This document shows positions 23,767-38,059 of a stretch of DNA of 64,000 bases, one piece after another. Below the pieces are notes generated by a model, which was not told where the DNA came from, searched no databases, and worked only from the letters and a program-made list of their open reading frames with translations. Where the stretch lies: the NCBI GenBank assembly GCA_016290135.1, contig JAEESW010000007.1, positions 1-64,000 of the forward strand, in the 5' to 3' direction. Within the stretch, counting starts at the first letter, position 1; every line of letters begins with the position of its first letter. Origin of the DNA: a bacterium. GTDB lineage: Bacteria > UBP6 > UBA1177. Both the position numbers and the translations under genes were made by a program.

Positions 23767-24378
23767 TCAGAACTGTTCCGCCCACTTTGCGAGTTCGGCT
23801 TTGTCCAGTCTGCCGTTCATCATCTTTCCTTCGATGATGGTTGCTTTCGGAGCACTCGGCTGAAGCTCTTTTACGGTGTTTCCGAAACCGCTTCCGCCGC
23901 TCGTTGCGAAGACTACGACCTTTTTGCCGGAGAAGTCATAGGCTTCGAGAAAGCTGTTTATGATGTGCGGCGCGACATACCACCAGATCGGAAAACCGAT
24001 GAAGATCACATCGTAATCCGCGATCTTTGCGTTTTTGTCTGCAAGTCCGGGACGGCTTTTCTTGTCAGCCATCTCAACGCTGGAGCGCGATGTTTTGTCT
24101 CTCCAGTCGAGATCGTTGTTCGTGTATTTTGTCTCAGGTCTGATCTCGTAAATGTCGGCTTTTGCAGCTTCCGCGAGATCTTTTGCAACTTTTGCGGTCG
24201 TTCCGCTCGCGCTGAAATAGGCAACTAATCTTTTAGGCATCTTTTTTCCTCCGTCGTTCTGTTGAATACTACTTTTTTTTGCATTGTCCGCAGCTGGTTT
24301 CTTCTCCTTGGACTGATTCTGCGCAAAAACAATACCGGCTATGAGCAGAACAGCCAGGATCATGATAACTTTTTTCAT
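23767..24378 (-). CDS. Exported flavodoxin
   Basis: A 203-residue flavodoxin-like protein with an N-terminal signal peptide (MKKVIMILAVLLIAGIVFAQ) and a lysine-rich linker to about residue 45. The flavin phosphate loop is YFSASGTTAK, and the aromatic PIWWYVAP and TSGGSGFG loops also fit the flavodoxin-4 family. The start at 24378 has AGGAGG at five bases. On the minus strand the first operator palindrome supplies the -35 TTGACA (24484-24479), and 16 bp further on is TAAATT (24462-24457). It should therefore be repressed directly by the local TetR-type regulator. An extracytoplasmic flavodoxin is unusual. The related lipoprotein at 27939-28646 has the same layout. Confidence 0.8.
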   Translation of the reverse strand: MKKVIMILAVLLIAGIVFAQNQSKEKKPAADNAKKSSIQQNDGGKKMPKRLVAYFSASGTTAKVAKDLAEAAKADIYEIRPETKYTNNDLDWRDKTSRSSVEMADKKSRPGLADKNAKIADYDVIFIGFPIWWYVAPHIINSFLEAYDFSGKKVVVFATSGGSGFGNTVKELQPSAPKATIIEGKMMNGRLDKAELAKWAEQF

Positions 24379-24470
24379 CAAATCCTCCTGAAATATCAGT
24401 TCTTCAACATTGGCACCGCATCGATGTTAACTTGAGTCGGCGCGTCAAAACGATATAATTTAATCAAAAC

Positions 24471-24540
24471 TGACACGGTGTCAAAATAAAAATTGACACG
24501 GTGTCAAAATTCATATAGCTTCATTTCTGACACGGTGTCA
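24471..24540. promoter_or_regulatory. Triple TetR-type operator between two divergent genes
   Basis: Three copies of TGACACGGTGTCA at 24471-24483, 24494-24506 and 24528-24540 (start-to-start 23 and 34 bp). The first overlaps the -35 box of the minus-strand flavodoxin promoter. The second forms a TTGACA usable on the plus strand. The same three-site layout, with the same spacings and similar sequence between, recurs at 31371-31440 in front of the TetR gene. Confidence 0.8.
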
Positions 24541-24566
24541 AAACAGGTGCGGCTCTGTGTCGGAGG

Positions 24567-24610
24567 ATGTTTGAATGCTTGGTCTTACGGTAAATTGGAG
24601 TATGAGATGA
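24567..24610 (+). other. Conserved leader with two overlapping tiny ORFs, copy 1
   Basis: Frame 1 (24567-24593) reads MFECLVLR-stop. Frame 2 starts at the ATG at 24575, 8 bases after the first ATG and with GGAGG well placed, reads MLGLTVNWSMR, and its TGA overlaps the main start codon at 24607 (ATGA). See copies at 27896, 28689 and 31465. Confidence 0.45.
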
Positions 24611-25707
24611 AAAGAATTTTTGCTGTTTTCGCGGTTTTGGTGTTTGTGCTTGTTTCATGCGGCGGAAAACTGGAATCGAATGAGAAAAATGTTTCAACTG
24701 AAAAGGGAGGTGCAACTATGGAGTCGCTTAAAAGATCTGTGGAACCTGAAAAAAAAGAAGAACACTACACTTTCAAACTGGCAGACGGCGTGAAGAGAAC
24801 GAAAGTTCATTTCAAAAACCATTTCGGAATAGAGCTCGCCGGAGAGCTTTACACACCGAAAAATGCTGCTGAAAAAGGGAATGCGGCGATCGCTGTCAGC
24901 GGTCCTTTCGGCGCTGTGAAGGAGCAGTCGAGCGGCCTTTATGCGAACGAAATGGCGAAGAGAGGCTTCATCGCTCTCGCTTTTGATCCTTCGTTCACAG
25001 GTGAAAGCGCAGGTGAGCCGCGTTACATGAACAGCCCTGACATCAATACCGAGGATTTCATGGCGGCAGTCGATTTCCTTTCGACAAGAGTGAATATCGA
25101 TCCCGAAAAGATCGGCATAATCGGTATCTGCGGATGGGGCGGAATGGCTATCAACACTGCTGCGGTCGATACGAGAGTCAAGGCTACGGTCGCAAGCACG
25201 ATGTATGACATGAGCCGCGTAGTCGCAAACGGATACAACGACAGTGCGGACAGTGCGGAGGCAAGAAACGAAATGCGCAAAGCTCTGATGGCACAGAGGA
25301 CCGAAGACTTCAAAAACGGCTCATACAAACTTGCCGGCGGCGTGATAGATCCGCTTCCGGAAGACGCTCCGCAGTTCATCAAGGATTACTACGCATACTA
25401 CAAGACTCCGCGCGGCTACCACGAGCGCAGCCTCAATTCGAACGGCGGCTGGAATGTAACGGCGGCGACATCGCTTCTCAACACGAAACTGCTTGCTTAT
25501 GCCGGCGAAATCGAAAACGCGGTCATGGTTGTACACGGCGAAAAGGCACACAGCAGATACTTCAGCGAAACGGCGTTCAAAAAACTCAAAGGCGACAACA
25601 AGGAAATCGTGATAATTCCAGGAGCAAGCCATGTTGATCTTTACGACAACCTTGAAAAGATCCCGTTCGGCAAAATAGACGAATTCTTCAGAAAGTATTT
25701 GAAGTAG
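24607..25707 (+). CDS. Alpha/beta-hydrolase lipoprotein with cysteine nucleophile
   Basis: A 366-residue predicted lipoprotein (LVSC, cysteine 18). After a linker comes an alpha/beta-hydrolase domain. The nucleophile elbow reads GICGWGG with Cys175 where most esterases have serine; dienelactone hydrolases also use cysteine here. The catalytic histidine is probably His342 in GASHVDLYD, and an acid lies in the VVHGEKAHSRY region. The oxyanion segment VSGPFGAVKEQ fits the family. The start at 24607 has GGAG and follows a conserved leader and three TetR-type operators. With its neighbours it suggests removal of reactive lactones, quinone products or other electrophiles at the envelope; the substrate is inference. 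Confidence 0.8.
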   Translation: MKRIFAVFAVLVFVLVSCGGKLESNEKNVSTEKGGATMESLKRSVEPEKKEEHYTFKLADGVKRTKVHFKNHFGIELAGELYTPKNAAEKGNAAIAVSGPFGAVKEQSSGLYANEMAKRGFIALAFDPSFTGESAGEPRYMNSPDINTEDFMAAVDFLSTRVNIDPEKIGIIGICGWGGMAINTAAVDTRVKATVASTMYDMSRVVANGYNDSADSAEARNEMRKALMAQRTEDFKNGSYKLAGGVIDPLPEDAPQFIKDYYAYYKTPRGYHERSLNSNGGWNVTAATSLLNTKLLAYAGEIENAVMVVHGEKAHSRYFSETAFKKLKGDNKEIVIIPGASHVDLYDNLEKIPFGKIDEFFRKYLK

Positions 25708-25753
25708 CCGGAAGTACTGGAAACGGAAAGACAAATATAAGGTAGGAAAAAGT

Positions 25754-27148
25754 ATGAAAAAACTGATTTTTTTGCTGATTTTAGCACAATTCTTGATAGT
25801 GCTGGCTGAAGCCGATATTCCGGCAGTCGATGTCCATTCACACTTCACTACTGAAGAATATCTTGTACTTCTCAAAAAGCACAATGCAGAGATGGATGAG
25901 CTTTATCCGATCCCGGCCTGGAGTGAAGACGAGTTGCAGAAATTCATGGATAGATCCGGAATTTCGTTTTCGGTTCTGACGACTCCGGCGCCTCATCCCT
26001 ATTTCGGCGATGCGAAAGAGGCTGAGAAAGTGTGCCGCTCGATCAACGACAAGGCTTCCCAGATCGCAAAACGGTCGAACGGAAGGCTAGCCTGGTGCGC
26101 GACTTTGCCGCTTCCGGATGTCAAGGCTTCGGTAAAAGAGGCCGAGAGGGCATTGAAAACGCTCGGCGCATCGTGCGTCAAACTGCCGACCAATGCCAGA
26201 GGTCTTTATCTCGGTGAAAAGGAGCTTGAACCTTTGATGAAAACTCTCAATGATTACGGCGTAGTGGCTGTTCTTCATCCGCACAGGCCCGAGCCTTTCA
26301 ACAAAAAACTTGCAGAAGGGCTTCCGCTTGCGATGTATGAATACACAGCTGAGACGACCAGAGCTTTGGCTCTGATGTTTGCTCACAATGTTCCTGCACG
26401 CTATCCGAAAATACGTTTTGTTGTTCCTCATGCCGGAGCATTGCTCCCGCTTGCTCTGCCGAGAATGAAAGCTGTTCATCCGGTAGTCATGGCGGCGGGA
26501 TATGCCGGAAAAGTCGACTGGGATGCCAATTTGAAATCATTATGGTTTGATGTGGCCGGTTCTCCGAATGCTGAAAGCGTGCACCGTCTGATGAAAATTG
26601 TGCCGCCCGAAAGGATTCTTTACGGCTCAGATTTTCCGTATGCTCCGGCAGATGCTCTTGCATCCGGACTTTCCCGTTTTAAAAAGGAACTTTCGGAAGA
26701 TCCGGAACTTGCTCCTTATGCGGCCGGGATACTTGCAGGAAACGCAGCGGAACTCTTCGGTTTCAACAATTTGAAAATTGCGAAAAAGGAGCAGACAATG
26801 GAGAAAAAAGCGATAGGAAACGGGTTTATAGTGCGTATTGCCGAAATAGAAGTCCATCCTCAGTATCTGCAGGAATATCTGGCTTATGCGGAAGAGGTCG
26901 ACCGCCTTTCAATAGAGCGTGAACCTGGAGTTATATGCCTTTTCCCGATGCAGCATGCTGATGATCCGAATAAAATAAGCATACTTGAAATTTACGCTTC
27001 CGAAGAGCTCTACAAACAGCATTTGAACACAGCGCATTTTCAGAAATACAAAAAGGGGACGCTGCACATGGTCAAAAGCCTGAAACTGCCTGAAATGCGC
27101 CCGCTCGATAAAAAAACGATGGAGCAGATATTCAAAAAACTCAAGTGA
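25754..27148 (+). CDS. Amidohydrolase fused to an ABM (quinol monooxygenase-like) domain
   Basis: A 464-residue exported protein with an N-terminal signal peptide (to about residue 20). The amidohydrolase-2 domain, related to ACMSD-type decarboxylases, shows metal ligands H28 and H30 in DVHSHF, then LHPHRP, VPHAGAL and YGSDFPY with the catalytic aspartate. From residue 349 there is an ABM/YgiN-like domain (VRIAEIEVHPQYLQEYL...EPGVICLFPMQ...HFQKY). An AAGGAG and ATG at 26786-26800 stand exactly at the junction, as if two genes had fused in frame; the second half may still be made separately. It lies 46 bp after the hydrolase gene, presumably in its operon. ABM proteins often act on quinols, which fits the redox theme. 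Confidence 0.8.
   Translation: MKKLIFLLILAQFLIVLAEADIPAVDVHSHFTTEEYLVLLKKHNAEMDELYPIPAWSEDELQKFMDRSGISFSVLTTPAPHPYFGDAKEAEKVCRSINDKASQIAKRSNGRLAWCATLPLPDVKASVKEAERALKTLGASCVKLPTNARGLYLGEKELEPLMKTLNDYGVVAVLHPHRPEPFNKKLAEGLPLAMYEYTAETTRALALMFAHNVPARYPKIRFVVPHAGALLPLALPRMKAVHPVVMAAGYAGKVDWDANLKSLWFDVAGSPNAESVHRLMKIVPPERILYGSDFPYAPADALASGLSRFKKELSEDPELAPYAAGILAGNAAELFGFNNLKIAKKEQTMEKKAIGNGFIVRIAEIEVHPQYLQEYLAYAEEVDRLSIEREPGVICLFPMQHADDPNKISILEIYASEELYKQHLNTAHFQKYKKGTLHMVKSLKLPEMRPLDKKTMEQIFKKLK
26798..27148 (+). other. Possible internal translation start for a free ABM domain
   Basis: AAGGAG (26786-26791) six bases before ATG (26798), in frame with the upstream amidohydrolase, would give a cytosolic 116-residue ABM protein in addition to the exported fusion. 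Confidence 0.45.
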
Positions 27149-27182
27149 TTTCGGTGAAATAGTTGGAAAAACAGGAGGAATC

Positions 27183-27824
27183 ATGAAAACAGTCATTATC
27201 AACGCAAGTCCGCGTAAGAACTGGAATACAGCTCAACTTTTAAAAGAGGCTGTGAAAGGTGCCGGATCCGCAGGGGCGGAAACGGAATATGTCGATTTGT
27301 ATGATTTGAATTTCTCCGGCTGCCGCAGCTGTCTTGCGTGCAAGCGTAAGGGGATGGGTGAACTCTGCAGATGTTATTGGAAGGACGGGCTTTCACCGTT
27401 GTTAGATAAAATACTTGAGGCTGATCATCTGATAATAGGTTCACCTGTCTATTTCAGTGAACCGACGGGAGGTCTCCGCTCATTTATGGAGCGGTTGATT
27501 TTTCCTGCTCTTTCCTATAACGATTATTCAAGCCGGTTCCGCGGAAAGATTAAAGTCGATGTTTTTCTGACAATGAATATGCCTGCGAACCTCTACGGTC
27601 AGATGTATGAGAAACGGATGCAGGAGTACTTCGCACCATTCGGATTTTTGAACGGATCGCTGCGGATTTTCCCGGTTTGCGATACGCTTCAGGTAGAGGA
27701 TTATTCCAAATACGACATGGCGGCTTTTTCCGAAGAACATAAAAGATCTGTCAAAGAAACAGAGTTCCGTCAGGCTTTGGAAAAGGCGTTCGAAGTCGGT
27801 TCCGGCAAAGAACAGGTCGGTTAG
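27183..27824 (+). CDS. NADPH-dependent FMN reductase / iron-sulfur flavoprotein-like
   Basis: A 213-residue flavoprotein. IINASPRKNWNT is the FMN phosphate loop of the FMN-reductase family, SPVYFSEPTG the second flavin loop. The cluster CRSCLACKRKGMGELCRC gives five cysteines near residue 45, as in iron-sulfur flavoproteins, though spacing is not the classical one. AGGAGG precedes the ATG and the gene follows the amidohydrolase by 34 bp. The last 14 or so residues (FEVGSGKEQVG) do not belong to this family. They match the C-terminus of the flavodoxin lipoprotein downstream, so the 3' end is chimeric and ends at a TAG that is GAG in the parent. Confidence 0.8.
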   Translation: MKTVIINASPRKNWNTAQLLKEAVKGAGSAGAETEYVDLYDLNFSGCRSCLACKRKGMGELCRCYWKDGLSPLLDKILEADHLIIGSPVYFSEPTGGLRSFMERLIFPALSYNDYSSRFRGKIKVDVFLTMNMPANLYGQMYEKRMQEYFAPFGFLNGSLRIFPVCDTLQVEDYSKYDMAAFSEEHKRSVKETEFRQALEKAFEVGSGKEQVG

Positions 27825-27856
27825 CGGCTTTCGCCGATCGGCTTGCGGAATAATCC
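27785..27856 (+). pseudogene. Relic of a flavodoxin gene 3' end
   Basis: This stretch aligns with the last ~75 bases of the flavodoxin gene ending at 28646, and the alignment continues into the operator and leader that follow each. Its first part is used as the C-terminus of the FMN reductase. A GAG-to-TAG change and a one-base deletion break the rest. It marks an earlier tandem flavodoxin copy that was lost. Confidence 0.75.
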
Positions 27857-27892
27857 TGACACGGTGTCAAAATAGGCGAGACTCCGTGTCGA
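27857..27892 (+). promoter_or_regulatory. TetR-type operator plus half-site
   Basis: TGACACGGTGTCA at 27857-27869, followed after 14 bp by CCGTGTCGA (27884-27892), a half-like site. The same pair occurs at 28650-28685. Confidence 0.75.
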
Positions 27893-27895
27893 AGG

Positions 27896-27942
27896 ATGCT
27901 TGAATGCTTTGTTTTACTATAGATATAAGGAGTATGAGATGA
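27896..27942 (+). other. Conserved leader with two overlapping tiny ORFs, copy 2
   Basis: Frame 1 (27896-27922) reads MLECFVLL-stop. Frame 2 (ATG 27904) reads MLCFTIDIRSMR and its TGA overlaps the start codon at 27939. Confidence 0.45.
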
Positions 27943-28646
27943 AAAAATTTTGGCTGATTTTAAGTGTTTTGATGTTTGTTTTCTTTGTTTCATGCGGCGA
28001 TCCGGATGATGAAGAAACGCCGCAGCCGGCTGACGGAAATTCGGAAACGGATGAAAATGCTGAGCCTGAAGAGCAGAATGACGCAGAAGAGGAACAGCAG
28101 GGCGGAGAAGAGCAGGAAACTGAAGAGGAGACAAGTGACGACAGTCAGGAACCTCAGGAAACAGGAAAAATTCTCGTTGCTTACTTTTCTTACACCGGCA
28201 ACACAAAGCTGATTGCGGAATACGCAGCCGAATTGCTCGGAGCTGATCTTGCCGAGATAGTTCCGGCGCAGCCTTACACCGCTGATGATACAAATTACAA
28301 CTCTCCAGACTGCCGCGCAAGAACGGAATACAACGACCCGGCCTCACGTCCTGCGATAAGCGGAAGTATCGGAAATATGGCTCAGTATGACACCGTTTTG
28401 ATCGCGCATCCCATCTGGTACGGAGACGCGCCGCGGATCATGGACACATTCATGGAAAGCTACGATTTTTCGGGAAAAACTCTCACCACATTCTGCACCT
28501 CTGCACAGAGTCCGCTTGGTCCAAGCGCGGAAAACCTCAAAAAATTCGCTCCTTCCGCAACATGGCTTGAAAGCAGGCGTTTTGAGATCGGTTCCAGCAG
28601 AGAACAGGTCGGCGAGTGGCTTTCGTCGATCGGCCTTGCGGAATAA
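27939..28646 (+). CDS. Flavodoxin lipoprotein
   Basis: A 235-residue predicted lipoprotein with lipobox FVSC. An acidic linker of about 60 residues (rich in E, Q, D) tethers a flavodoxin-4 domain: flavin loop YFSYTGNTK, then HPIWYGDAP and the CTSAQSPLG loop. It is related to the exported flavodoxin at 23767-24378 but anchored by a lipid instead of being free. AAGGAG sits six bases before the ATG. It is preceded by one operator, a half-site and a leader, and its own 3' end runs directly into the next operator. A flavin-based electron carrier outside the cytoplasm is the likely role; its partner may be the rubredoxin fusion or a quinone-active neighbour (inference). Confidence 0.8.
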   Translation: MKKFWLILSVLMFVFFVSCGDPDDEETPQPADGNSETDENAEPEEQNDAEEEQQGGEEQETEEETSDDSQEPQETGKILVAYFSYTGNTKLIAEYAAELLGADLAEIVPAQPYTADDTNYNSPDCRARTEYNDPASRPAISGSIGNMAQYDTVLIAHPIWYGDAPRIMDTFMESYDFSGKTLTTFCTSAQSPLGPSAENLKKFAPSATWLESRRFEIGSSREQVGEWLSSIGLAE

Positions 28647-28649
28647 TCC

Positions 28650-28685
28650 TGACACGGTGTCAAAATAGGAGTAACTCCGTGTCGA
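28650..28685 (+). promoter_or_regulatory. TetR-type operator plus half-site
   Basis: TGACACGGTGTCA at 28650-28662, three bases after the flavodoxin stop, with CCGTGTCGA following at 28677-28685. Near-identical to the cassette at 27857. Confidence 0.75.
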
Positions 28686-28688
28686 AGG

Positions 28689-28735
28689 ATGTTCGAATGT
28701 CTGGTCTTACGATAAATATAAGGAGGAAAAGATGA
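28689..28735 (+). other. Conserved leader with two overlapping tiny ORFs, copy 3
   Basis: Frame 1 (28689-28715) reads MFECLVLR-stop, identical in protein to copy 1 although four codons differ. Frame 2 (ATG 28697) reads [12 protein letters not shown] and its TGA overlaps the start at 28732. Confidence 0.45.
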
Positions 28736-29700
28736 AGACGATTACTATCAAAGCAGTGAAACTGTATGGAAACGGTTTCATGACTCAGCCGTTTGCTTTC
28801 GGCGGCGAAGACGGAATGGAAAAGTTCGATGCGGCGCAGCGTTACCGCTCGAGTCTGCAAAATTTTGTGATCGATACCGGCGATGAAGTCATTCTGGTCG
28901 ACACTGGAATGCCTGACGGGATTCCCGACGCGGTTCCTGATGAAAAGACCATGATCTATATGGGAACAAGGATCGCGGATTATATCGATGCGCTCGCTTC
29001 CGCAGGATACAAGCCTGAGCAGGTCTCCAAGATCCTCGTAACTCACAAGCATGCAGACCACACCGGTATGCTCAAGAGTTTTCCGAATGCAAAGATCTAC
29101 GTCAATGAGGAAGAGACGGATGCTAAAGAATTTCAGGGAATCGCAAATATCGTTCCGGTAAAGTTCACTGACGGGAACTACTATAATTTTCCCGAAAGTC
29201 AGAAAATCGCTGACGGGGTTTACTACATCAAGGCGAAAGGCCACACGAAAGGCAACAGCATCGTGATAGTCGAAAGCGGAGAGTTGTTCTATATGCTTCA
29301 CGGAGATATCACCTACACAGACGAAGCCCTCTATGCGAACAAGCTTTCAGTCGTTTTCGAGGATGCCGAGGCTGCAAGGGAGACTCTCGACAGAATACGC
29401 GAATTTATAGGGAATCATCCGACAGTCTACCTTTCGACGCATACTCCGCTCGGATATGAAAATCTTGAGGATCTGAAGGTCGTGGATCTCGCAAATCCGC
29501 CGGCAACTGTTCCTGTAGGCGAACTGACCTACAAAACATCAACAGGAAAGTATATCTGCGGTATCTGCGGATATGTCTATGATCCGGAAAAAGGAGACCC
29601 TGAGCACGGGATCCCGGCCGGAACGGCGTTTGAGGACCTTCCTGATGACTGGAAATGCCCGAGATGCAGACAGGGCAAAGAGAATTTCAATAAAGCGTGA
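28732..29700 (+). CDS. Metallo-beta-lactamase-fold protein fused to rubredoxin
   Basis: A 322-residue cytosolic protein. The N-terminal domain has the MBL metal site THKHADHTG (H105, H107, D109, H110), a further ligand in GHTKGNS, and HGD at the last conserved position. The C-terminal 50 residues are a complete rubredoxin with its Fe(Cys)4 site: C276-x2-C279 and C309-x2-C312. The order is MBL then rubredoxin, without the flavodoxin domain of flavodiiron proteins, so it is not a classical oxygen or NO reductase. AAGGAGG precedes the ATG. One operator and a conserved leader lie upstream. I infer an electron-transfer-coupled hydrolase or oxidoreductase in the same stress response. Confidence 0.85.
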
Positions 29701-29709
29701 CCGCTAAAC

Positions 29710-29722
29710 TGACACGGTGTCA
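29710..29722 (+). promoter_or_regulatory. TetR-type operator before dinB
   Basis: A single TGACACGGTGTCA 14 bp before the dinB start codon, without the half-site or leader seen at the other cassettes. So close to the start, it probably overlaps the transcription start. Confidence 0.75.
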
Positions 29723-29736
29723 AAATAGAGACTTCC

Positions 29737-30807
29737 ATGCAGCAGCGCAAGATCATTCATGTCGATATGGACGCCTTCTTCGTTTCGGTGGAGGAGCACG
29801 ATAACCCCGATCTGAAAGGGCATCCCGTTGTTGTAGGGCATGACGGCCCGCGCGGAGTAGTCGCTACTGCCAACTATACGGCCCGCAAATTCGGGATACA
29901 TTCTGCTCTTCCTATCGTCACGGCGCACCGTTTGTGCAAAGATCTCATCGTCGTCGAAGGCAGGTATTCGCGCTACAAGGAAATTTCGGAGCAGATACGG
30001 AATATTTTCAGGGAATACACTGATATGATCGAGCCTTTGAGTCTGGATGAGGCCTTTTTGGATGTGACGCGCAATAAAAAGGGGATCCCTCTGGCCGTCG
30101 ATATCGCTTCAGAGATCAAGAAGCGGATATTTGAGGATACCGGACTCACCGCTTCTGCAGGGGTAAGCTACTGCAAGTTTCTCGCCAAGATCGCAAGCGA
30201 CTACCGCAAACCAGACGGACTCTGCACGATCCACCCCGACCGAGCGCTTAAGTTCATCGACAAACTGAAAGTGGAACAGTTCTGGGGAGTAGGCGAAAAG
30301 ACGGCTCAGCATCTGCACAAAATGGGAGTGTTCACCGGGCGGGAGCTTCGTGAAGTGCCGCTTGAAGTCTTGACGCGCGAGTTCGGAAAGACAGGGCGGA
30401 TCTTCTACGATTTTGCGAGAGGAATCGACGGGCGTCCCGTCGTCACGGAGTTCGTCCGCAAGTCGCTCGGATGTGAGCACACTTACCCGAAAGATCTCGA
30501 AAGCGGCGAAGAGATGGCGCGGGAGCTCTCTCTTTTGGCTGAAGAATTGTCCGAAAGGCTGAAGAAACACGGCTTTACAGGCAGATCCCTTGTGTTGAAG
30601 ATAAAATACAGCGATTTCAGGCAGACGACGCACTGCCGCACAGGGAGTAAGCCGATAGAGACTTTTGACGAGATCCTTTCCCTTACAAAGGATCTGCTTG
30701 AGGAAGTCGACGTGCGGCATCCGGTAAGGCTTCTGGGGCTTTCTGTAGCGAATCCTCTCCTGACAGAAGATCCGCAGACGCCGCAGCAGATGACTTTTGA
30801 CTGGTAA
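29737..30807 (+). CDS. dinB: DNA polymerase IV (Y family)
   Basis: A 356-residue translesion polymerase. The catalytic acids are visible: D10 in HVDMDAFF and D104-E105 in SLDEAF. YSRYKEIS, ASAGVSYCKFLAKIASD and the helix-hairpin-helix WGVGEKTAQHL follow in order, then the little-finger domain. The C-terminus QQMTFDW fits a beta-clamp-binding peptide. The operator lies only 14 bp upstream, and the repair gene for alkylated guanine follows after 4 bp, so both repair genes should be controlled by the TetR-type regulator. I see no LexA-like box. Confidence 0.95.
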   Translation: MQQRKIIHVDMDAFFVSVEEHDNPDLKGHPVVVGHDGPRGVVATANYTARKFGIHSALPIVTAHRLCKDLIVVEGRYSRYKEISEQIRNIFREYTDMIEPLSLDEAFLDVTRNKKGIPLAVDIASEIKKRIFEDTGLTASAGVSYCKFLAKIASDYRKPDGLCTIHPDRALKFIDKLKVEQFWGVGEKTAQHLHKMGVFTGRELREVPLEVLTREFGKTGRIFYDFARGIDGRPVVTEFVRKSLGCEHTYPKDLESGEEMARELSLLAEELSERLKKHGFTGRSLVLKIKYSDFRQTTHCRTGSKPIETFDEILSLTKDLLEEVDVRHPVRLLGLSVANPLLTEDPQTPQQMTFDW

Positions 30808-30811
30808 AAAT

Positions 30812-31324
30812 ATGGAAGGAAATGTTTTCAAGCGCATTTACCGCACGCCTAAGGGGCTCGATGATCTCATCATGGTCTCAGAGGGCGGGATCCTCACCGG
30901 ATTGAGCTTTTTTGACTGCGCTGATAATAAAATTGAGTGCGAGGAGAAGGAACTTCCCGTATTCCGCGATACAAAAAAGTGGCTCGATATCTATTTTTCA
31001 GGGAAATCGCCTGATTTTATGCCGGAATTCAAAATAAATGACTTGACACCTTTCAGGAAGGAAGTTTCCGATATCATGCTCTCTATTCCCTTTGGAAAAA
31101 CGATGACTTACGGCGGGATCGCGGCACTTGTCGCACAGAAGCGCGGCATCAAAAAAATGTCGGCTCAGGCCGTGGGCGGCGCTGTGGGCTGGAACCCTCT
31201 CTGCATAATAGTGCCGTGCCACCGCGTCCTTGGCGCAGACAAAAGCCTTACCGGTTACGGCGGCGGCATCAAAAACAAGATCGCGCTTCTTGAACTCGAA
31301 GGTATTGAGTTCAGAAAACCGTAA
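30812..31324 (+). CDS. ogt: Methylated-DNA--protein-cysteine methyltransferase
   Basis: Suicide repair protein that takes alkyl groups from O6-alkylguanine. It has 170 residues. The acceptor is C136 in VPCHRVLG, followed by LTGYGGGIKNKIALLELE, all as in the Ogt/MGMT family. The helix-turn-helix part IPFGKTMTYGGIAALV binds DNA. The start at 30812 lies 4 bp after dinB, so they form one operon. Pairing of a translesion polymerase with direct alkyl reversal points to alkylating or electrophilic stress as the inducing condition. Confidence 0.92.
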   Translation: MEGNVFKRIYRTPKGLDDLIMVSEGGILTGLSFFDCADNKIECEEKELPVFRDTKKWLDIYFSGKSPDFMPEFKINDLTPFRKEVSDIMLSIPFGKTMTYGGIAALVAQKRGIKKMSAQAVGGAVGWNPLCIIVPCHRVLGADKSLTGYGGGIKNKIALLELEGIEFRKP

Positions 31325-31370
31325 AACTTGCACTGTCTCAATAAGCTCTTGCGATGTTCTGCTAAATAAC

Positions 31371-31440
31371 TGACACGGTGTCAAAATAAAAATTGACACC
31401 GTGTCAGAATTCATATAGCCTCGTTTCTGACAGGGTGTCA
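31371..31440. promoter_or_regulatory. Triple operator before the TetR gene
   Basis: TGACACGGTGTCA at 31371-31383, TGACACCGTGTCA at 31394-31406 and TGACAGGGTGTCA (one mismatch) at 31428-31440. Spacings are identical to the triple site at 24471-24540 and the DNA between is nearly the same, so one is a copy of the other. It suggests autoregulation. Confidence 0.8.
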
Positions 31441-31464
31441 AAATGCGAAGATGCTGTGTTCAGG

Positions 31465-31493
31465 ATGATTCGATGCCGGTTATAAACAAATGA
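31465..31493 (+). other. Diverged leader with two overlapping tiny ORFs, copy 4
   Basis: Frame 1 (31465-31485) reads MIRCRL-stop, keeping the cysteine at position 4. Frame 2 (ATG 31473, again 8 bases later) reads MPVINK-stop and ends 15 bp before the TetR start codon, so it does not overlap it. Confidence 0.35.
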
Positions 31494-31508
31494 TCATAGG
31501 AGGAAAAA

Positions 31509-32135
31509 ATGCCGAGAGCTTCTGAGGAACGGACTTCAGCACGCAGGGAAGAGATCGTTGATGCTTGTGAAAATCTTTATCAGACGATGAGATTCGAAGA
31601 TGTCACTTTGAAGCAGATCGGAGCTGCGACGACCTTGACTCGGACTGCGATATACAGCTATTTTCAGACTAAAGAGGAGATCTTTCTTGCTCTTTTGCAG
31701 CGTGAATACAGTAAATGGATCGCTGAACTCGGGGAGATCGAGAAGTCGAAAGTCAAATTTACGGCTCCCAAACTTGCCGGAATGCTGGCTCGTTCGCTTC
31801 AAAACAGGGTGCAGCTGCTGAAACTGCTCAGCATGAACCTCTATGCGATCGAGGAAAACAGCCGCGATGCAAATCTGATCGAGTTCAAAAAAGTCTATAA
31901 AGCCTCTGTCGATGCTGTTGACAGGTGTTTCAGAAAGCTGAGACCGAAAGCCGCTCCGGCTGAGAGCTACGACTTCACTTATCAGTTTTTTCCTTTTATT
32001 TACGGCATCTATCCTTATGTTTTTCCATCTGACAAACAGATCCGCGCGATGAAGACAGCGGGTATGAAACTCAAAAAACGGACGGTCTATAAGCTTGCGT
32101 ACCCTGCGATCCTGAATTTACTCGAAAAAAAATAA
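31509..32135 (+). CDS. TetR-family transcriptional regulator
   Basis: A 208-residue repressor-like protein. The N-terminal helix-turn-helix reads TLKQIGAATTLTRTAIYSYFQTKEEIF (about residues 34-60), and the C-terminal all-helical part would bind a ligand. AGGAGG lies just before the ATG. It is the only DNA-binding regulator in this gene cluster and lies directly behind three TGACACSGTGTCA sites. TetR proteins bind palindromes of this kind, so I infer that it controls itself and the units from 23.8 to 31.3 kb. The ligand is unknown; a quinone or other electrophile is plausible. Confidence 0.88.
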   Translation: MPRASEERTSARREEIVDACENLYQTMRFEDVTLKQIGAATTLTRTAIYSYFQTKEEIFLALLQREYSKWIAELGEIEKSKVKFTAPKLAGMLARSLQNRVQLLKLLSMNLYAIEENSRDANLIEFKKVYKASVDAVDRCFRKLRPKAAPAESYDFTYQFFPFIYGIYPYVFPSDKQIRAMKTAGMKLKKRTVYKLAYPAILNLLEKK

Positions 32136-32187
32136 AAACCGGATAGAATTCTTTGTTTTTTTCTTTGATTCTTTGTTGAGGTTACAA

Positions 32188-35100
32188 ATGAAAAGGATTT
32201 TTTTTGCATTCGCGATCCTTCTCGGCATCGTCTCTTTAAGCGGCGCTGAGCTTTTTTACGATGACGGGACACGCGTTCCGATGAAAAAATCAGAGGAATT
32301 GAGTGCGGTCAAAACCAAAGCTTCGGATGCGGAAAAGCAGAAAGGGGCAGTCTACGGCATGAATACCGGACGCTATGTCTACTCTTTCGTGAGCGGCAGG
32401 AAAGGCGGATACGGTCTTCCTGTTTATTTTCTGGGAGAAACACCGGTCGTTGCGGAAAGCAGGATTTTCTGGCGTGGTGAGAACTCCGTCGAATATATGG
32501 AAGAAAAGTACGGGATGAAGCTCTCCGAAATATTGCCGAGTTATGCGCTCTACTCCTTTTCTATCGAGGGGGACAGCGTTGAGATCTCCGAAAAGATAGT
32601 GAAAAACGGCGACGGTTACGCGTTCCCGGATCTAGTGCGCGAAACGACCATAAATTTCGTGCCGGCAAGTTCACCGGCTGATCCTTATTTCAATATGCAG
32701 TGGCATCTGAAAAACACAGGAACGGCTACATTCCATTATAGCAACGCCGATCTCGACAGACCTGTCGTGGCAAATGCCGACGTGAAATTCCTTCAGGCGC
32801 TCGAATTCCTGCACAACAACAATTTTGAGGTCGATACGAATACGAAGATCGCGATAATGGACAGCGGTGTTTCGCCTGATCATGAAGATCTGACGAATCT
32901 TGATGCCGGTTGGGATGCTTTGGAGAATAAGGAAGGCGGTTATCCTAACGATGTTTTTGTGACCGGTGACGACCACGGAACGCAGTGTGCCGGTGTCAGC
33001 GCAGGTGCCGGAAATGATATCGGAATGAGCGGAGTATGTCCGTGGTGCAGGATCTATCCTTTGAGATGGATCAGCGGACAGACTTCTGCGCACTCTTCTT
33101 CCGATATGCTCGCGGTTTACGAAAGATATCTTGCAGATCCTGATATCACCACGATAAACTGCAGTTTCGGACCGACTGCCCAGAACGGTGTCTCCTATGT
33201 TTACCCCGATGAGATCACGGCGATCAGGAGTTTCATGCAGAACGGAAGAAACGGAAAAGGAGGAGTTGTCGTCTATTCATCGGGAAACGACAATGTCGAT
33301 TCTTCTTACAAACGCTATCTTGAGTATGATTTCAAATTTAAAAGAAACGGTGTCGAAGTTACAAACAGAGTCGTTACCGTAAACGCGACGACAGCATGGG
33401 ACACGAAAGCGGAATACTCGAATTACGGCTATGCATCGACTGTTTCTGCTCCTTCGCGTTCGAACGGACCGATGGTAGGTATTGCGACGGCTACGATCCC
33501 CGGTCACGGAGAGTATCCGGCAGCCGGCTCGGATTACACGCGTCTTTTCAGCGGAACTTCTGCAGCGGCTCCCGTAGTTTCGGGTCTTTTCGGCGTTATA
33601 TTCAGCGTAAATCCTGAGCTTACGCTTGAAGAAGCAGTGGAGATCCTCAAGCAGAGTGCCGATAAAATCAATCCGGAAACAGGTTTCTGGGATGAGAACG
33701 GTTTCAGTGTGAAATACGGCTACGGCAGGGTGAATCTTGAAAAAGCCGTGCGTCTCGCCAAAGGTTTTACGATGTGCGGAAATGTTACAGGCGAGGTTTG
33801 CGGAAACCATCTCGACGATGACTGCGACGGCTATGTCGATGAAGGGTGTTCTTCACCGCTTCCTGCCGGAAATCCCTGTTCAACGGATGCCGACTGTGTG
33901 AGCGGCCCGTGGAAGGCTTCTGATGTCAAATGCCTGACCTCGCGTGAAGCGTGGGTATTTAGAGGCGGATACTGTTTCGTTAAATCAACTCTTTATTCCC
34001 CGAGTCTGATCTATTCCTTTGCGCCGTGTCCCGACGGAACAAAGATCCTCGGCGGCAGAGAAAATGACTACGACTATTACTGCGCGCTCGAATGTAACAG
34101 AGAACATCCGTGTCAGAGAGAAGGATATTACTGCACAGACGATGTCCTCGGTATCTGTGTGCCGCTCTGTTCGAGCGATTCTGACTGCACTGAAGGTTAT
34201 TCATGCAGCGACAGCGGACACTGCACTTCGGTGTGCGGAAACGGCCGGATCGATGACGGCGAAGCCTGCGACAACGGCGACGACAACGGTGCGCTGTACT
34301 GCGCTTACGGTGAGTCCAGCTGCACTGTCTGCACCTCGGAATGTCAGGAGACGGCAGGAAAGACTTCATTCTGCGGTGACTGGAAGATCGATCCTCACAA
34401 TGGCGAAGAATGCGATAAAGGTTATTACAACAACGGGAATCTGAACTGTACTTACGGAGAGATGAGCTGCACTGTATGCACATCTGACTGCAGGGAAACT
34501 GCCGGAACGATCTCCTACTGCGGCGACGGAGTCGCAAACTCTGGCTATGAGACCTGCGACGACGGCTCCGACAACGGCAGGACCGACTGCACCTACGGAG
34601 AACACTCCTGCACAGTCTGCACGACAGGATGCCAGCGCGCCTCAGGTGCAACTTCCTACTGCGGCGACAGCAGGATCGACGGAACAAACGGGGAGGTCTG
34701 TGACAACGGTTCCGACAACGGCAGAACGGCATGTGCTTACGGCGAACACTCCTGCACAGTCTGTACGACAGGCTGCAAACCAGTGGAAGGCACGATCTCC
34801 TACTGCGGCGACGGCAGGATCGATGCGGCAAACGGGGAGACCTGCGACGATCCTGCAACAAACGGACAAAAGGACTGCGCTTACGGCGAAGAGAGCTGCA
34901 CGGTCTGCACGAGTACCTGCGTCACGGCATCAGGCACGACCTCTTTCTGCGGTGACGGAACGGTCGACAGCGCAAACGGCGAAGCCTGCGACAACGGTTT
35001 TGACAACGGCAGAACAAACTGCGCTTACGGTGAGACCGGCTGTAATGTCTGCACGAACGAATGTCTGATCGAGGTCGGAACGACTTCCTACTGCGGCGAC

Positions 35101-35442
35101 GGATATGTGGATGCCGAAGGCGGTGAGATCTGCGATGACGGAGATGATAACGGAAGTAACGGTCTTTGCACTTCGGAATGTAAAGAGGAAGTTCCCGACG
35201 AAGGCGACACTGTTCCCGACGAAGGCGACACTGTTCCCGACGAAGGCGACACTGTTCCCGACGAAGGCGATACCGCTCCCGACGAAGGCGACACTTCTGA
35301 AGAAAATTCGGACAGCACGGAAGTTATCTCTGACGAAGATGCTGAAGCCGGTGATAACCCGGAGGGATCTTCCTCAGACGATGGAGAGATGCGCGGAGAT
35401 GAAACGAAAAAAAGCGGAGGCTGTTCGCTCCTTGTGTTATAA
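32188..35442 (+). CDS. Secreted subtilase with cysteine-rich repeats and SGGCS tail
   Basis: A 1084-residue exported serine protease (peptidase S8). Signal peptide 1-19, then a propeptide-like region ending before DPYFNMQWHL. The triad is D225 (IMDSGV), H263 (DHGTQCAG) and S458 (FSGTSAAAP), with the oxyanion Asn in SSGND. A MopE-like motif GNHLDDDCDGYVDEGC follows. Then come EGF-like cysteine pairs and seven repeats of about 45-50 residues of the CGDG...GE.CD.G.DNG type. The tail is five PDEGDTV repeats, an acidic stretch, and KKSGGCSLLVL at the very end. The start at 32188 has GAGG upstream. The paralogue follows 61 bp later. Probably cell-surface bound through the tail (inference). Confidence 0.9.
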   Translation: MKRIFFAFAILLGIVSLSGAELFYDDGTRVPMKKSEELSAVKTKASDAEKQKGAVYGMNTGRYVYSFVSGRKGGYGLPVYFLGETPVVAESRIFWRGENSVEYMEEKYGMKLSEILPSYALYSFSIEGDSVEISEKIVKNGDGYAFPDLVRETTINFVPASSPADPYFNMQWHLKNTGTATFHYSNADLDRPVVANADVKFLQALEFLHNNNFEVDTNTKIAIMDSGVSPDHEDLTNLDAGWDALENKEGGYPNDVFVTGDDHGTQCAGVSAGAGNDIGMSGVCPWCRIYPLRWISGQTSAHSSSDMLAVYERYLADPDITTINCSFGPTAQNGVSYVYPDEITAIRSFMQNGRNGKGGVVVYSSGNDNVDSSYKRYLEYDFKFKRNGVEVTNRVVTVNATTAWDTKAEYSNYGYASTVSAPSRSNGPMVGIATATIPGHGEYPAAGSDYTRLFSGTSAAAPVVSGLFGVIFSVNPELTLEEAVEILKQSADKINPETGFWDENGFSVKYGYGRVNLEKAVRLAKGFTMCGNVTGEVCGNHLDDDCDGYVDEGCSSPLPAGNPCSTDADCVSGPWKASDVKCLTSREAWVFRGGYCFVKSTLYSPSLIYSFAPCPDGTKILGGRENDYDYYCALECNREHPCQREGYYCTDDVLGICVPLCSSDSDCTEGYSCSDSGHCTSVCGNGRIDDGEACDNGDDNGALYCAYGESSCTVCTSECQETAGKTSFCGDWKIDPHNGEECDKGYYNNGNLNCTYGEMSCTVCTSDCRETAGTISYCGDGVANSGYETCDDGSDNGRTDCTYGEHSCTVCTTGCQRASGATSYCGDSRIDGTNGEVCDNGSDNGRTACAYGEHSCTVCTTGCKPVEGTISYCGDGRIDAANGETCDDPATNGQKDCAYGEESCTVCTSTCVTASGTTSFCGDGTVDSANGEACDNGFDNGRTNCAYGETGCNVCTNECLIEVGTTSYCGDGYVDAEGGEICDDGDDNGSNGLCTSECKEEVPDEGDTVPDEGDTVPDEGDTVPDEGDTAPDEGDTSEENSDSTEVISDEDAEAGDNPEGSSSDDGEMRGDETKKSGGCSLLVL
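35191..35295 (+). repeat. 21-bp tandem repeat, five copies, in the subtilase gene
   Basis: Units of GTTCCCGACGAAGGCGACACT start at 35191, 35212, 35233, 35254 and 35275; the last two carry one or two changes. Each encodes VPDEGDT. The first three are identical, so copy number is likely to vary between strains. Confidence 0.95.
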
Positions 35443-35503
35443 AATGCTCGAAAAAAATAAAAATATTATATGATAACTGGTTTTTTGATTGCAGAGGTTT
35501 AAG

Positions 35504-38059
35504 ATGAAAAAAATCTTTTTTGCGTTTTTAATCTTTTTTAGTGCGCTCGTTGTGAGCGGTGCTGAGCTTTTTTACAGCAACGGAAGCAGTATTTCCATCG
35601 CAAAGGCGGAGAACTACAGCGTCATCAAAAGTGCTCCTTCGGCAGTTTTTGCTCCTAAAAACGAGCTTTACCGGCTGAATACCGGAAGCAGTGTCTACTC
35701 TTTCGTCATCGGGAACGGAGGGGAACTTCCGGTCTATTTTCTTGGCGATATGCCGGTCGTTGCTGAACGGATGATCTTCTGGCGCGGGGAAAAAGCGGTC
35801 GAATATATTGAGAAAAAATACGGGCTCAGACTTGTCGAAATAATGCCTTCTTATCCGCTTTACGTCTTTGCGGTGAAGGGGGACAGCGTTGAGACTGCGG
35901 AAAAAATCGTGAAAGAGGGCGACGGTTACGCTTTTCCTGACCTCGTGCGCGAAACGACTCTCAGAATGGTGCCGGCGAGCGCGCCGAAGGATCCTTATTT
36001 CGATGTGCAGTGGCATTTGCAGAATACAGGAAAGGTCAAGGATTATCAGGGAAAAGATGTCAGCATCATGAAAAACGCCGATACAAAATTCATCCAGATG
36101 CTCGAATTCCTGAATTCCAACAATATTGAAGTCGATACTAATACTAAAATTGCGATAATGGATACCGGTATCGTGCCGGACCACGAGGATCTCACGAATA
36201 TCGAACCGGGCTATGACGCTTTGCAGGACAAAGAGGGCGGATATCCCGATATTTCGGAACTCGAAGAGTCTCCTTATGCCGACTATTATGCTTCAAGTGT
36301 CGGTCACGGAACGACTTGCGCAGGTGTCAGCGCAGGTGTCGGAAACGAGATCGGAATGAGCGGTATGTGCCCGTGGTGCAGGCTTTATCCGGTAAGATAT
36401 CTCGAAGGTATCTCCGGAACAGCAATGTCGAGCGAGACGACTCTCAAGGCTTATGAAAAATATGTGGCTGACCCTGATATTTCAGTAGTAAACTGCAGTT
36501 TCGGCCCGGATTCCTCATTCGGAATAATTCCCGTTTCTCCCGATGAGATCGAAACTCACCGCAACTTTATGCAGAACGGTAGAGGAGGAAAGGGCGGTGT
36601 CATCGTATATGCATCAGGAAATGACGGGATCGATTCTTCATACGAGCAGCTCCTCGGCTACGATTTCGTTTTCGAGAGAGACGGTGTCGAAGTTACAGAC
36701 CGTGTAGTTACGGTCAACGCTTCCTCGGCATGGGATATGAGAGTCGAATATTCAAATTACGGGTATTACTCGACTGTAATAGCTCCGTCGCTTTCGGAAA
36801 CTCCGATCGTAGGCATCGCCACGACATCTATTCCCGGTTACGGCGATTACAAAGGAGACTACACCCTTCTGTTTTCCGGGACTTCTGCGGCGGCCCCGGT
36901 AGTTTCAGGCTTTTTTGGTGCGATATTCAGCATAAATCCTGATCTTACGCTTGAAGAGGCTATAGATATCCTGAAAAAAAGTGCCGATAAAATCAATCCG
37001 GAAACCGGACTTTGGGACAAAAACGGTTTTAGTGTAAAATTCGGCTACGGAAGAGTAAACCTTGAAAAAGCAGCGCGTCTTGCGGCTGGGTTTACGATGT
37101 GTGACGGTGAAAAGGAGGAAAGCTGCGGGAATCATATCGATGATGACTGCGACGGCTTTGTCGATGAAGGCTGCGCCGATGAACTTACTGTCGGAAAACC
37201 GTGTGAAACGGCTGCCGACTGTCAGACAGACACCCTTGCGGCAGCTGATGCCGAATGTTTGAAAGTGCGCCGTTACTGGATCTTTGAAGGCGGTTACTGC
37301 GCAGCAAAAAGCGGCAGCTCGCCGTGCCCCGATGGAACAAAGCCTTTGGATGCCACTGATGACAGACAGAATTATATCTGCGCTCTTGAGTGCAACAGTG
37401 TCAAACCTTGCGAAAGGGAGGGGTATTACTGCTCCAACGAGCTTCTCGGAGTCTGTCTGCCTTCTTGTACCGACAATTCAGGCTGCAACGACGGCTCTTT
37501 CTGCAATGATGAGGGCAGATGCGAGAAAATTCCCGGACCGATCGGCGGAAGCTGCTCCAATGATGACGAATGCAATGGCGAATTTACGACATGCAATATC
37601 TGGTTTACAGGCGGATACTGCACGCAGGAGTGTTTCGACAACGAAGATTCCGACTGTCCTGACAATGCAAAGTGTGTGACAAACGGAAGACGCCAGACGA
37701 CATCTTGTCTCGCTTCATGCGCTTCAGACAAAGACTGCAGGACCGGTGAAGGCTACCTCTGCCATCCGAAGATGGGTTCGAAAAGCGGAGTCTGTTACAG
37801 AAAATGCCGCAGCAACAGCGACTGCAGTGATGAAGATGCTGTCTGCAACGAAGACGGTTACTGCGCACTCGAGGACTGGAAAGGCTGGCCTGAAGAAGAG
37901 CCTGAAGAAGGATCTGGAGACGATGACAGTGATGCAGATGCCGGCAGTGATGAAGAAGCGGAAGAAGATGCTTTGTCTGACGACGATGCTGCTTCTGATG
38001 ACGACAGCGGATCCGGACAGAAAAAGAAGAGCGGCGGATGCTCGATCGTTGTGATGTAG
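35504..38059 (+). CDS. Secreted subtilase paralogue with SGGCS tail
   Basis: An 851-residue sister of the preceding protease. Signal peptide 1-18, propeptide-like region, DPYFDVQWHL, and the triad D220 (IMDTGI), H268 (GHGTTCAG), S461 (FSGTSAAAP). A MopE-like GNHIDDDCDGFVDEGC and several EGF-like cysteine blocks (CETAADC, CSNDDECNG) follow. It lacks the long CGDG repeat array and the PDEGDT repeats of its neighbour, having instead an acidic D/E/S tail. It ends in KKKSGGCSIVVM, the same unusual tail. The N-terminal halves are very similar, so this is a tandem duplication followed by exchange of C-terminal modules. GAGG precedes the ATG at 35504. Confidence 0.9.
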   Translation: MKKIFFAFLIFFSALVVSGAELFYSNGSSISIAKAENYSVIKSAPSAVFAPKNELYRLNTGSSVYSFVIGNGGELPVYFLGDMPVVAERMIFWRGEKAVEYIEKKYGLRLVEIMPSYPLYVFAVKGDSVETAEKIVKEGDGYAFPDLVRETTLRMVPASAPKDPYFDVQWHLQNTGKVKDYQGKDVSIMKNADTKFIQMLEFLNSNNIEVDTNTKIAIMDTGIVPDHEDLTNIEPGYDALQDKEGGYPDISELEESPYADYYASSVGHGTTCAGVSAGVGNEIGMSGMCPWCRLYPVRYLEGISGTAMSSETTLKAYEKYVADPDISVVNCSFGPDSSFGIIPVSPDEIETHRNFMQNGRGGKGGVIVYASGNDGIDSSYEQLLGYDFVFERDGVEVTDRVVTVNASSAWDMRVEYSNYGYYSTVIAPSLSETPIVGIATTSIPGYGDYKGDYTLLFSGTSAAAPVVSGFFGAIFSINPDLTLEEAIDILKKSADKINPETGLWDKNGFSVKFGYGRVNLEKAARLAAGFTMCDGEKEESCGNHIDDDCDGFVDEGCADELTVGKPCETAADCQTDTLAAADAECLKVRRYWIFEGGYCAAKSGSSPCPDGTKPLDATDDRQNYICALECNSVKPCEREGYYCSNELLGVCLPSCTDNSGCNDGSFCNDEGRCEKIPGPIGGSCSNDDECNGEFTTCNIWFTGGYCTQECFDNEDSDCPDNAKCVTNGRRQTTSCLASCASDKDCRTGEGYLCHPKMGSKSGVCYRKCRSNSDCSDEDAVCNEDGYCALEDWKGWPEEEPEEGSGDDDSDADAGSDEEAEEDALSDDDAASDDDSGSGQKKKSGGCSIVVM

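Follow-up and report, generated by a model that had tools for sequence, protein, structure and literature searches.

The targets of MhqR/YodB-type regulons, whose regulators belong to the MarR and DUF24 families, are genes for hydrolases, reductases and thiol-dependent detoxification. In Escherichia coli, N-ethylmaleimide and methylglyoxal inactivate the repressor NemR via its cysteines, of which Cys21 and Cys116 are reported to be critical (PMC3739934), and MhqR is presented as a quinone-responsive regulator of Firmicutes (PMC6798810). Here we describe a locus of the candidate bacterial phylum UBP6 that invites comparison with these systems. The stretch of DNA analysed (the window; 64 kb) is part of contig C57 of the draft genome G000 (2.47 Mb, 98% complete). 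It carries a gene for a TetR-family protein, TetR1 (31509-32135), and nine copies of a palindrome, TGACACSGTGTCA, that we predict to be its operator.

Our analysis makes it likely that TetR1 is an autoregulated repressor and the master of a regulon dispersed through the genomes of its UBP6 genus, most likely induced by an electrophile or carbonyl compound. Sites, their conservation, co-occurrence and promoter geometry are read from the sequence, and from them we infer binding, repression, the inducer and the physiological role. A sequence-only reading of the window had proposed a compact, local stress regulon; the 'local' and 'stress only' parts of that proposal should give way to an expanded regulon shared by the genus.

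Predicted operators and genes in the window

A motif scan of the window found eight exact sites (starting at 24471, 24494, 24528, 27857, 28650, 29710, 31371 and 31394) and a ninth, at 31428, that reads TGACAGGGTGTCA and has one mismatch. The nine copies counted by the sequence-only reading, one of them mismatched, are thus confirmed within the limits it gave, against a chance expectation at up to two mismatches of 0.84 for the whole window; none of 100 shuffles reached nine. Although 91% of the stretch is coding, all nine sites fall between genes (naive p ~3e-10), and they lie 15-126 bp before the start codons of abh, flvB, the metallo-beta-lactamase/rubredoxin gene, dinB and tetR. The features are listed below; the gene identities proposed earlier agree with Pfam and NCBIfam profile searches.

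23767..24381, minus strand: flvA, secreted flavodoxin (Flavodoxin_4; PF12682, E=4e-71), divergent from the first array, which begins 90 bp from the flvA start
24471..24540: predicted operator array between flvA and abh (palindromes at 24471, 24494 and 24528)
24607..25707, plus strand: abh, lipoprotein alpha/beta hydrolase of the dienelactone-hydrolase type (PF01738, E=8e-8; lipobox)
25754..27148, plus strand: amidohydrolase fused to an ABM monooxygenase domain (PF04909, E=2e-31; PF03992, E=1e-12)
27183..27824, plus strand: NADPH-dependent FMN reductase (PF03358, E=9e-20)
27857..27869: predicted operator before flvB (motif scan)
27939..28646, plus strand: flvB, second lipoprotein flavodoxin (PF12682, E=6e-43)
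28650..28662: predicted operator before the metallo-beta-lactamase/rubredoxin gene (motif scan)
28732..29700, plus strand: metallo-beta-lactamase fold fused to rubredoxin (PF00753, PF00301)
29710..29722: predicted operator, 15 bp before the dinB start codon (motif scan)
29737..30807, plus strand: dinB, DNA polymerase IV (NF002677, 437 bits, cut-off 256)
30812..31324, plus strand: ogt, O6-alkylguanine-DNA alkyltransferase, directly after dinB (TIGR00589, over cut-off)
31371..31440: predicted operator array before tetR (palindromes at 31371, 31394 and 31428)
31509..32135, plus strand: tetR (TetR1), TetR-family repressor (TetR_N and TetR_C_34), proposed regulator of all sites
Predicted operator in probe form: TGACACGGTGTCA

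The claim that sites precede nearly every transcription unit holds for flvA/abh, flvB, the metallo-beta-lactamase/rubredoxin gene, dinB and tetR. It does not hold for the amidohydrolase-ABM, FMN reductase and ogt genes, which lack individual sites; transcription would reach them from abh and dinB. The three-site arrays at abh and tetR have identical spacing (23/34 bp) and near-identical sequence, and the leaders of flvB and the metallo-beta-lactamase/rubredoxin gene have flanks in common. Downstream of tetR lie two adjoining genes for secreted subtilisin-like proteases (32173-35442 and 35489-38059), both with long Cys-rich C-terminal repeats and a GGCS-hydrophobic tail.

A probable regulon dispersed over the genome and the genus

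A pattern search of the whole genome gave 37 sites, 23 exact and 14 with one mismatch, whereas the reversed pattern gave no exact site and a single one at one mismatch. They are spread over contigs C9, C11, C29, C57 and C66, with lone one-mismatch sites on C24 and C64. The sites extend over five contigs or more, the regulon is shared across a rumen genus, and it is not the compact local one first proposed. That proposal had named a genome-wide scatter of sites, remote from genes of this sort, as evidence against itself; scattered they are, yet the genes behind them are of the same kinds.

Beyond the window, the predicted regulon includes a site cluster on C66 (19012-43413) that exceeds the window cluster in size and repeats its themes, with flavodoxins, a hydrolase paralogous to abh (L006:10145-11239) and likewise a regulon member, CMD-cupin, aldo/keto reductase, iron-containing alcohol dehydrogenase (Fe-ADH) and FMN reductases. 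Also in this cluster are a degenerate dinB, another TetR (TetR2) and an Rrf2/Sir2/macro group. The larE-larB-larC, DUF362 and cation-efflux genes are further predicted targets; on C29, larC, larB and larE are found with sites before larB and larE, together with a cation-efflux gene.

We compared 15 genomes of the genus with 13 genomes from other UBP6 genera; homologous records of the genus are rumen metagenome-assembled genomes that carry the label UBP6_UBA1209, which places them in UBP6, or 'uncultured Spirochaetales' (RUG11946, RUG12558). Exact sites occur in 13 of the 15 genus genomes vs none of the 13 others. A full TetR1 homolog is likewise present in 13 of the 15 (58-100% identity, one split over two contigs); in the other genera there is no full TetR1, and the weak matches there, mostly to the helix-turn-helix (HTH) domain, have E values no better than 6e-7. 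The TetR1 proteins of UBP6 form one clade with support of 100/100.

The commonest context of tetR in the genus is [sites]-larE-larB-larC-[sites]-small membrane protein-DUF362-tetR (G001, G006, G007, G011, G012 and G014, with variants). Directly behind the arrays are genes for flavodoxins (8 genomes), metallo-beta-lactamase/rubredoxin (7), LarE (6), cation efflux (6), Fe-ADH (5), Fic/HTH_17 (5), CMD in two groups (5 and 3), a second metallo-beta-lactamase-fold protein (5), FMN reductase (4) and a cyclophilin-like protein (4). Flavodoxin is the class most often beside the arrays, with 13 cases in 8 genomes. The Fic/HTH_17 protein and the Rrf2-Sir2-macro-domain group that stand behind operator arrays (L005:10045-13193 and orthologs) are 95-100% identical between species, which suggests recent transfer or strong constraint.

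Homologs of the repressor beside the same palindrome in other phyla

TetR1 has homologs of about 50% identity in Selenomonadaceae, Synergistota and, very commonly, Clostridia; no relatives were found on viral contigs. At 74 non-UBP6 loci, we compared a near zone, from -2 kb to +0.3 kb of tetR (203 kb), with the flanks (939 kb). Exact palindromes numbered 24 in the near zone vs 0 in the flanks, and one-mismatch palindromes 66 vs 4; at two mismatches, 64 of the 74 loci have a palindrome near tetR. Of thirty scrambled palindromes with the same composition, none had more than one near-tetR match at one mismatch. The proposal that the TetR encoded at 31509-32135 binds the sites gains from this, since its homologs elsewhere adjoin the same palindrome, and the predicted pairing of repressor and operator is unusually well supported.

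The palindromes near these tetR genes usually come in pairs. Of the pairs, 38 are spaced by 36 bp, and their consensus, TATTGACACnGTGTCAGAAT..TGnTATAnT..TGACACnGTGTCA, outlines a promoter. Operator 1 holds TTGACA as the -35 element, a 17-bp spacer leads to TATAAT, and operator 2 starts about 9 bp further on, near +1. An operator pair that brackets a sigma-A-type promoter in this way indicates direct, autoregulated repression in the homologs.

In 24 Clostridia-type genomes searched whole, sites are found essentially only at the tetR locus, with one further exact site in three genomes; the step from a single locus to a regulon thus belongs to the UBP6 genus. Around the 74 tetR genes, gene density within 3.5 kb exceeds that in the flanks of the same contigs 22-fold for aldo/keto reductase, 17-fold for flavin reductase, 8-fold for CMD and 3.5-fold for flavodoxin. 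FMN reductases, Fe-ADH and DUF362 are likewise enriched within this 3.5- to 22-fold range, and Pfam tallies agree. An Oscillibacter locus (L107:4307-8505) has the order site-DUF362-flavodoxin-tetR-larE-larB, its contig ending in larB. The redox and hydrolase set proposed from the window thus recurs both across the genus and around homologous tetR genes in other phyla. Because these target classes recur across phyla, the data support a shared core function in the reduction or detoxification of reactive organic compounds.

TetR1 and its proposed mechanism

TetR1 has an N-terminal HTH domain (TetR_N, PF00440, 29.8 bits, cut-off 24; also over the cut-off in the genome scan) and a C-terminal TetR_C_34 domain (PF17929, 35.5 bits, cut-off 26.3). 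Its AlphaFold model has a pLDDT of 93, with 2zcx as the best Foldseek match (TM 0.80). The structures that the model resembles are TetR proteins whose ligands belong to unrelated classes, and the fold therefore does not reveal the ligand of TetR1. Cys20 in helix 1 is present in 86 of 86 homologs, a count partly biased by one search peptide, CENLYQTM, that contained it, and Cys140 in 74 of 86. Conservation makes Cys20 a candidate sensor, and electrophile sensing by TetR1 is plausible. The enzyme set and the invariant Cys20 fit electrophile or quinone stress; carbonyl, 2-hydroxyacid or xenobiotic metabolism fits too.

We propose the following mechanism. A TetR1 dimer would bind the palindrome TGACACnGTGTCA, which outer A/T pairs extend to about 21 bp. 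Its predicted operators overlap its own promoter, as the arrays before the window tetR and the -35/+1 geometry in the homologs suggest, and bound TetR1 would cover the -35 region and the transcription start, blocking RNA polymerase. The repressor-palindrome pairing would have been inherited from, or be shared with, gut Firmicutes and Synergistota, where it would serve essentially one reductase locus. In the UBP6 genus, TetR1 would have turned into a master repressor over some 20 promoters. The core of the regulon would be formed by the extracytoplasmic flavodoxins, CMD-cupin, aldo/keto and FMN reductases, Fe-ADH and DUF362, to which UBP6 would have added larEBC, metallo-beta-lactamases including the rubredoxin fusion, cation efflux, the second TetR, Rrf2/Sir2/macro and, in some species, dinB and ogt. 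Induction would most likely come from a rumen compound, a reactive electrophile or a carbonyl, that occupies TetR1 or modifies it. The probable work of the regulon genes is the detoxification of reactive chemicals, the synthesis of a rare nickel cofactor and DNA repair.

Several observations weigh against this model, the search bias at Cys20 among them. The UBP6 genomes are drafts throughout. G009, which is 96% complete, has nine exact sites and no full TetR1 homolog that we could find, which may reflect an assembly gap or another repressor serving there. Conversely, G005 and G010 (77% and 72% complete) have TetR1 and no exact sites. In G010, where the exact operator is absent, a variant, TGACTCGGTGTCA, has four copies at separate places on contigs C2 and C116; drift of the operator along with its repressor is possible. 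Single sites also fall within reading frames, for example at C11:17614 in mutL and on C24, and these are probably non-functional. Finally, the -10 box is less clean in the UBP6 arrays than in Clostridia.

dinB and ogt as predicted members of the regulon

Full-length dinB close to the window copy is found in only five genus genomes, with a fragment in a sixth, and it lies in site clusters. In the window a site immediately precedes it, G014 has the operon site-CMD-CMD-flavodoxin-dinB, and in G009 it follows a site-flavodoxin membrane protein; in most species of the genus it is absent or broken. A remnant on C66 of G000 (33625-34015; L006:3626-4016) retains 59 N-terminal and 84 C-terminal residues between operator arrays, just before tetR2, and a C-terminal remnant lies in a similar site-cluster setting on C86 of G001. 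dinB has thus been duplicated and has decayed inside the regulon. ogt adjoins site arrays in G000, G001, G007 and G012, while G006 and G014 have it as the last gene of a unit, site-FMN reductase-ogt. The proposal that dinB and ogt are regulon members is borne out by several genomes in which a site heads their units.

lexA is present in 13 of the 15 genus genomes, and the palindrome ACCTTN8AAGGT lies over its promoter (upstream regions L262-L271), making it the probable LexA box of the genus. In the window this palindrome has only chance-level matches at two mismatches, none of them before dinB. SOS control of the window dinB was rejected on this ground, and the suggestion that dinB is independent of SOS is accordingly supported at the level of sequence.

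Nickel-pincer genes and DUF362

The products of larE, larB and larC make the nickel-pincer nucleotide (NPN) of LarA (PMC7583248), and DUF362 and the DUF2088 domain of LarA belong to a common Pfam clan, CL0471 (PMC11770544). In the genus, larE, larB and larC are conserved with intact domains and are predicted to be co-regulated with a DUF362 lipoprotein. LarA itself was rejected for the genus: Lar_N (LarA_N; PF09861/DUF2088) has no match in the 15 genomes, and the regulon protein matches DUF362 only.

The top two PDB matches of the DUF362 model are of the LarA family (4nar and 8ezh; E 7e-4 and 9e-4), with TM 0.35-0.39 for a weak model of pLDDT 64. The DUF362 profile has no match among PDB sequences, and the link to LarA comes from the fold search alone. 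Five residues invariant in DUF362 (R121, H153, H212, K222 and H243) can be matched, by spacing only, to R75, H108, H174, K184 and H200 of LarA, with an identical H-x9-K spacing in H212/K222 and H174/K184. It is plausible that they are counterparts, and we propose without proof that DUF362 may use the nickel-pincer cofactor. No DUF362 protein is reported as an NPN user in the two sources (PMC7583248, PMC11770544). A small, conserved membrane-like protein of about 120 residues, with the sequence MACFxVPxxEA and no Pfam match (L059:8210-8584, L115:10875-11234, L007:17-391), accompanies DUF362 in UBP6 and also in Monoglobus, there next to an ArsP-like permease.

The boldest form of our proposal joins these threads. 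A horizontally shared one-operon repressor would have become a global regulator in one genus of an uncultured phylum, coupling electrophile detoxification, nickel-pincer synthesis and translesion/alkylation repair outside SOS, and the co-regulated extracytoplasmic DUF362 would be a new class of nickel-pincer-dependent enzyme replacing LarA. As a whole we regard this version as rather unlikely.

Alternative explanations

The strongest alternative keeps the TetR regulon and makes it metabolic, with induction of carbonyl or 2-hydroxy-acid reduction or racemisation (aldo/keto reductase, Fe-ADH, larEBC plus DUF362) and with dinB and ogt as passengers of cluster rearrangement. The larE-larB-larC-DUF362-tetR order that is commonest around tetR in the genus speaks for it, as do the independent occurrence of a similar order in Oscillibacter and the absence or breakage of dinB in most species. 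However, CMD/cupin, flavodoxins, flavin reductases, metallo-beta-lactamase/rubredoxin and cation efflux make up no single known pathway, and ogt recurs behind sites, alone or after FMN reductase. We consider this explanation possible, and take the electrophile- or carbonyl-induced regulon as the likelier one.

Much less room is left for another regulator as the true binder, TetR2 (C66:34250) or Rrf2 (C66:21073-21534), with TetR1 merely a target. Site arrays precede the genes of both, and G009 has sites with no TetR1 detected, but the 74 non-UBP6 loci pair the site with TetR1 homologs and offer no TetR2 homolog and one weak Rrf2 match (L081, 33%). TetR2, moreover, is seen in only three genus genomes. 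Since neither accompanies the site outside UBP6, both were rejected as the main binder, and we judge this explanation very improbable.

That the palindromes are a spread repeat, or a promoter cassette duplicated with paralogs, with no regulatory meaning would account for the near-identical three-site arrays, the flanks shared by the flvB and metallo-beta-lactamase/rubredoxin leaders and the cluster duplication seen in the dinB remnant and the hydrolase paralog, but it is hardly credible given nine of nine intergenic sites, their conservation at unrelated genes across 13 species and the same word in the homologous tetR promoter of other phyla.

Significance

A literature search found no paper containing the operator and none on such a gene set under a TetR, which is weak evidence of absence as subscription journals were mostly uncovered. 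The analysis assigns this operator, of which that search found no description, to a TetR clade common in gut Clostridia, with a promoter geometry clear enough for reporter design. The probable expansion from a one-operon repressor to a global regulon within a single genus would be a natural case with an outgroup state available for comparison. In such a regulon dinB and ogt would answer to a metabolite-responsive repressor rather than to LexA, and where larBCE are present and larA is absent, DUF362 becomes a candidate for the protein that uses the nickel-pincer cofactor.

Comparison with known systems

The genus resembles LarA-superfamily systems in having larE, larB and larC, together with a regulon DUF362 protein of the same Pfam clan whose model has LarA-family proteins as its two best structure matches; it differs in having no LarA_N protein in any of the 15 genomes, and its DUF362 protein is a lipoprotein. 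As in the LexA/SOS system, a repressor is predicted to control a Y-family polymerase, whereas lexA of the genus has its own palindrome, absent before the window dinB.

With NemR-nemA-gloA (PMC3739934), the locus shares a TetR-family repressor beside a flavin-dependent reductase gene and a cysteine near the N terminus (Cys21 in NemR). No NemR model was among the NCBIfam matches of TetR1, and no equivalog was over the cut-off; we take NemR as an analogy for TetR1, not as a family to which it would belong. NemR controls one operon, whereas the predicted TetR1 regulon is genome-wide, and E. coli dinB is LexA-controlled under methylglyoxal, whereas the window dinB has a TetR site. The MhqR/YodB systems, in turn, use regulators of other families, and the predicted UBP6 targets extend to CMD-cupin, DUF362, larEBC, dinB and ogt.

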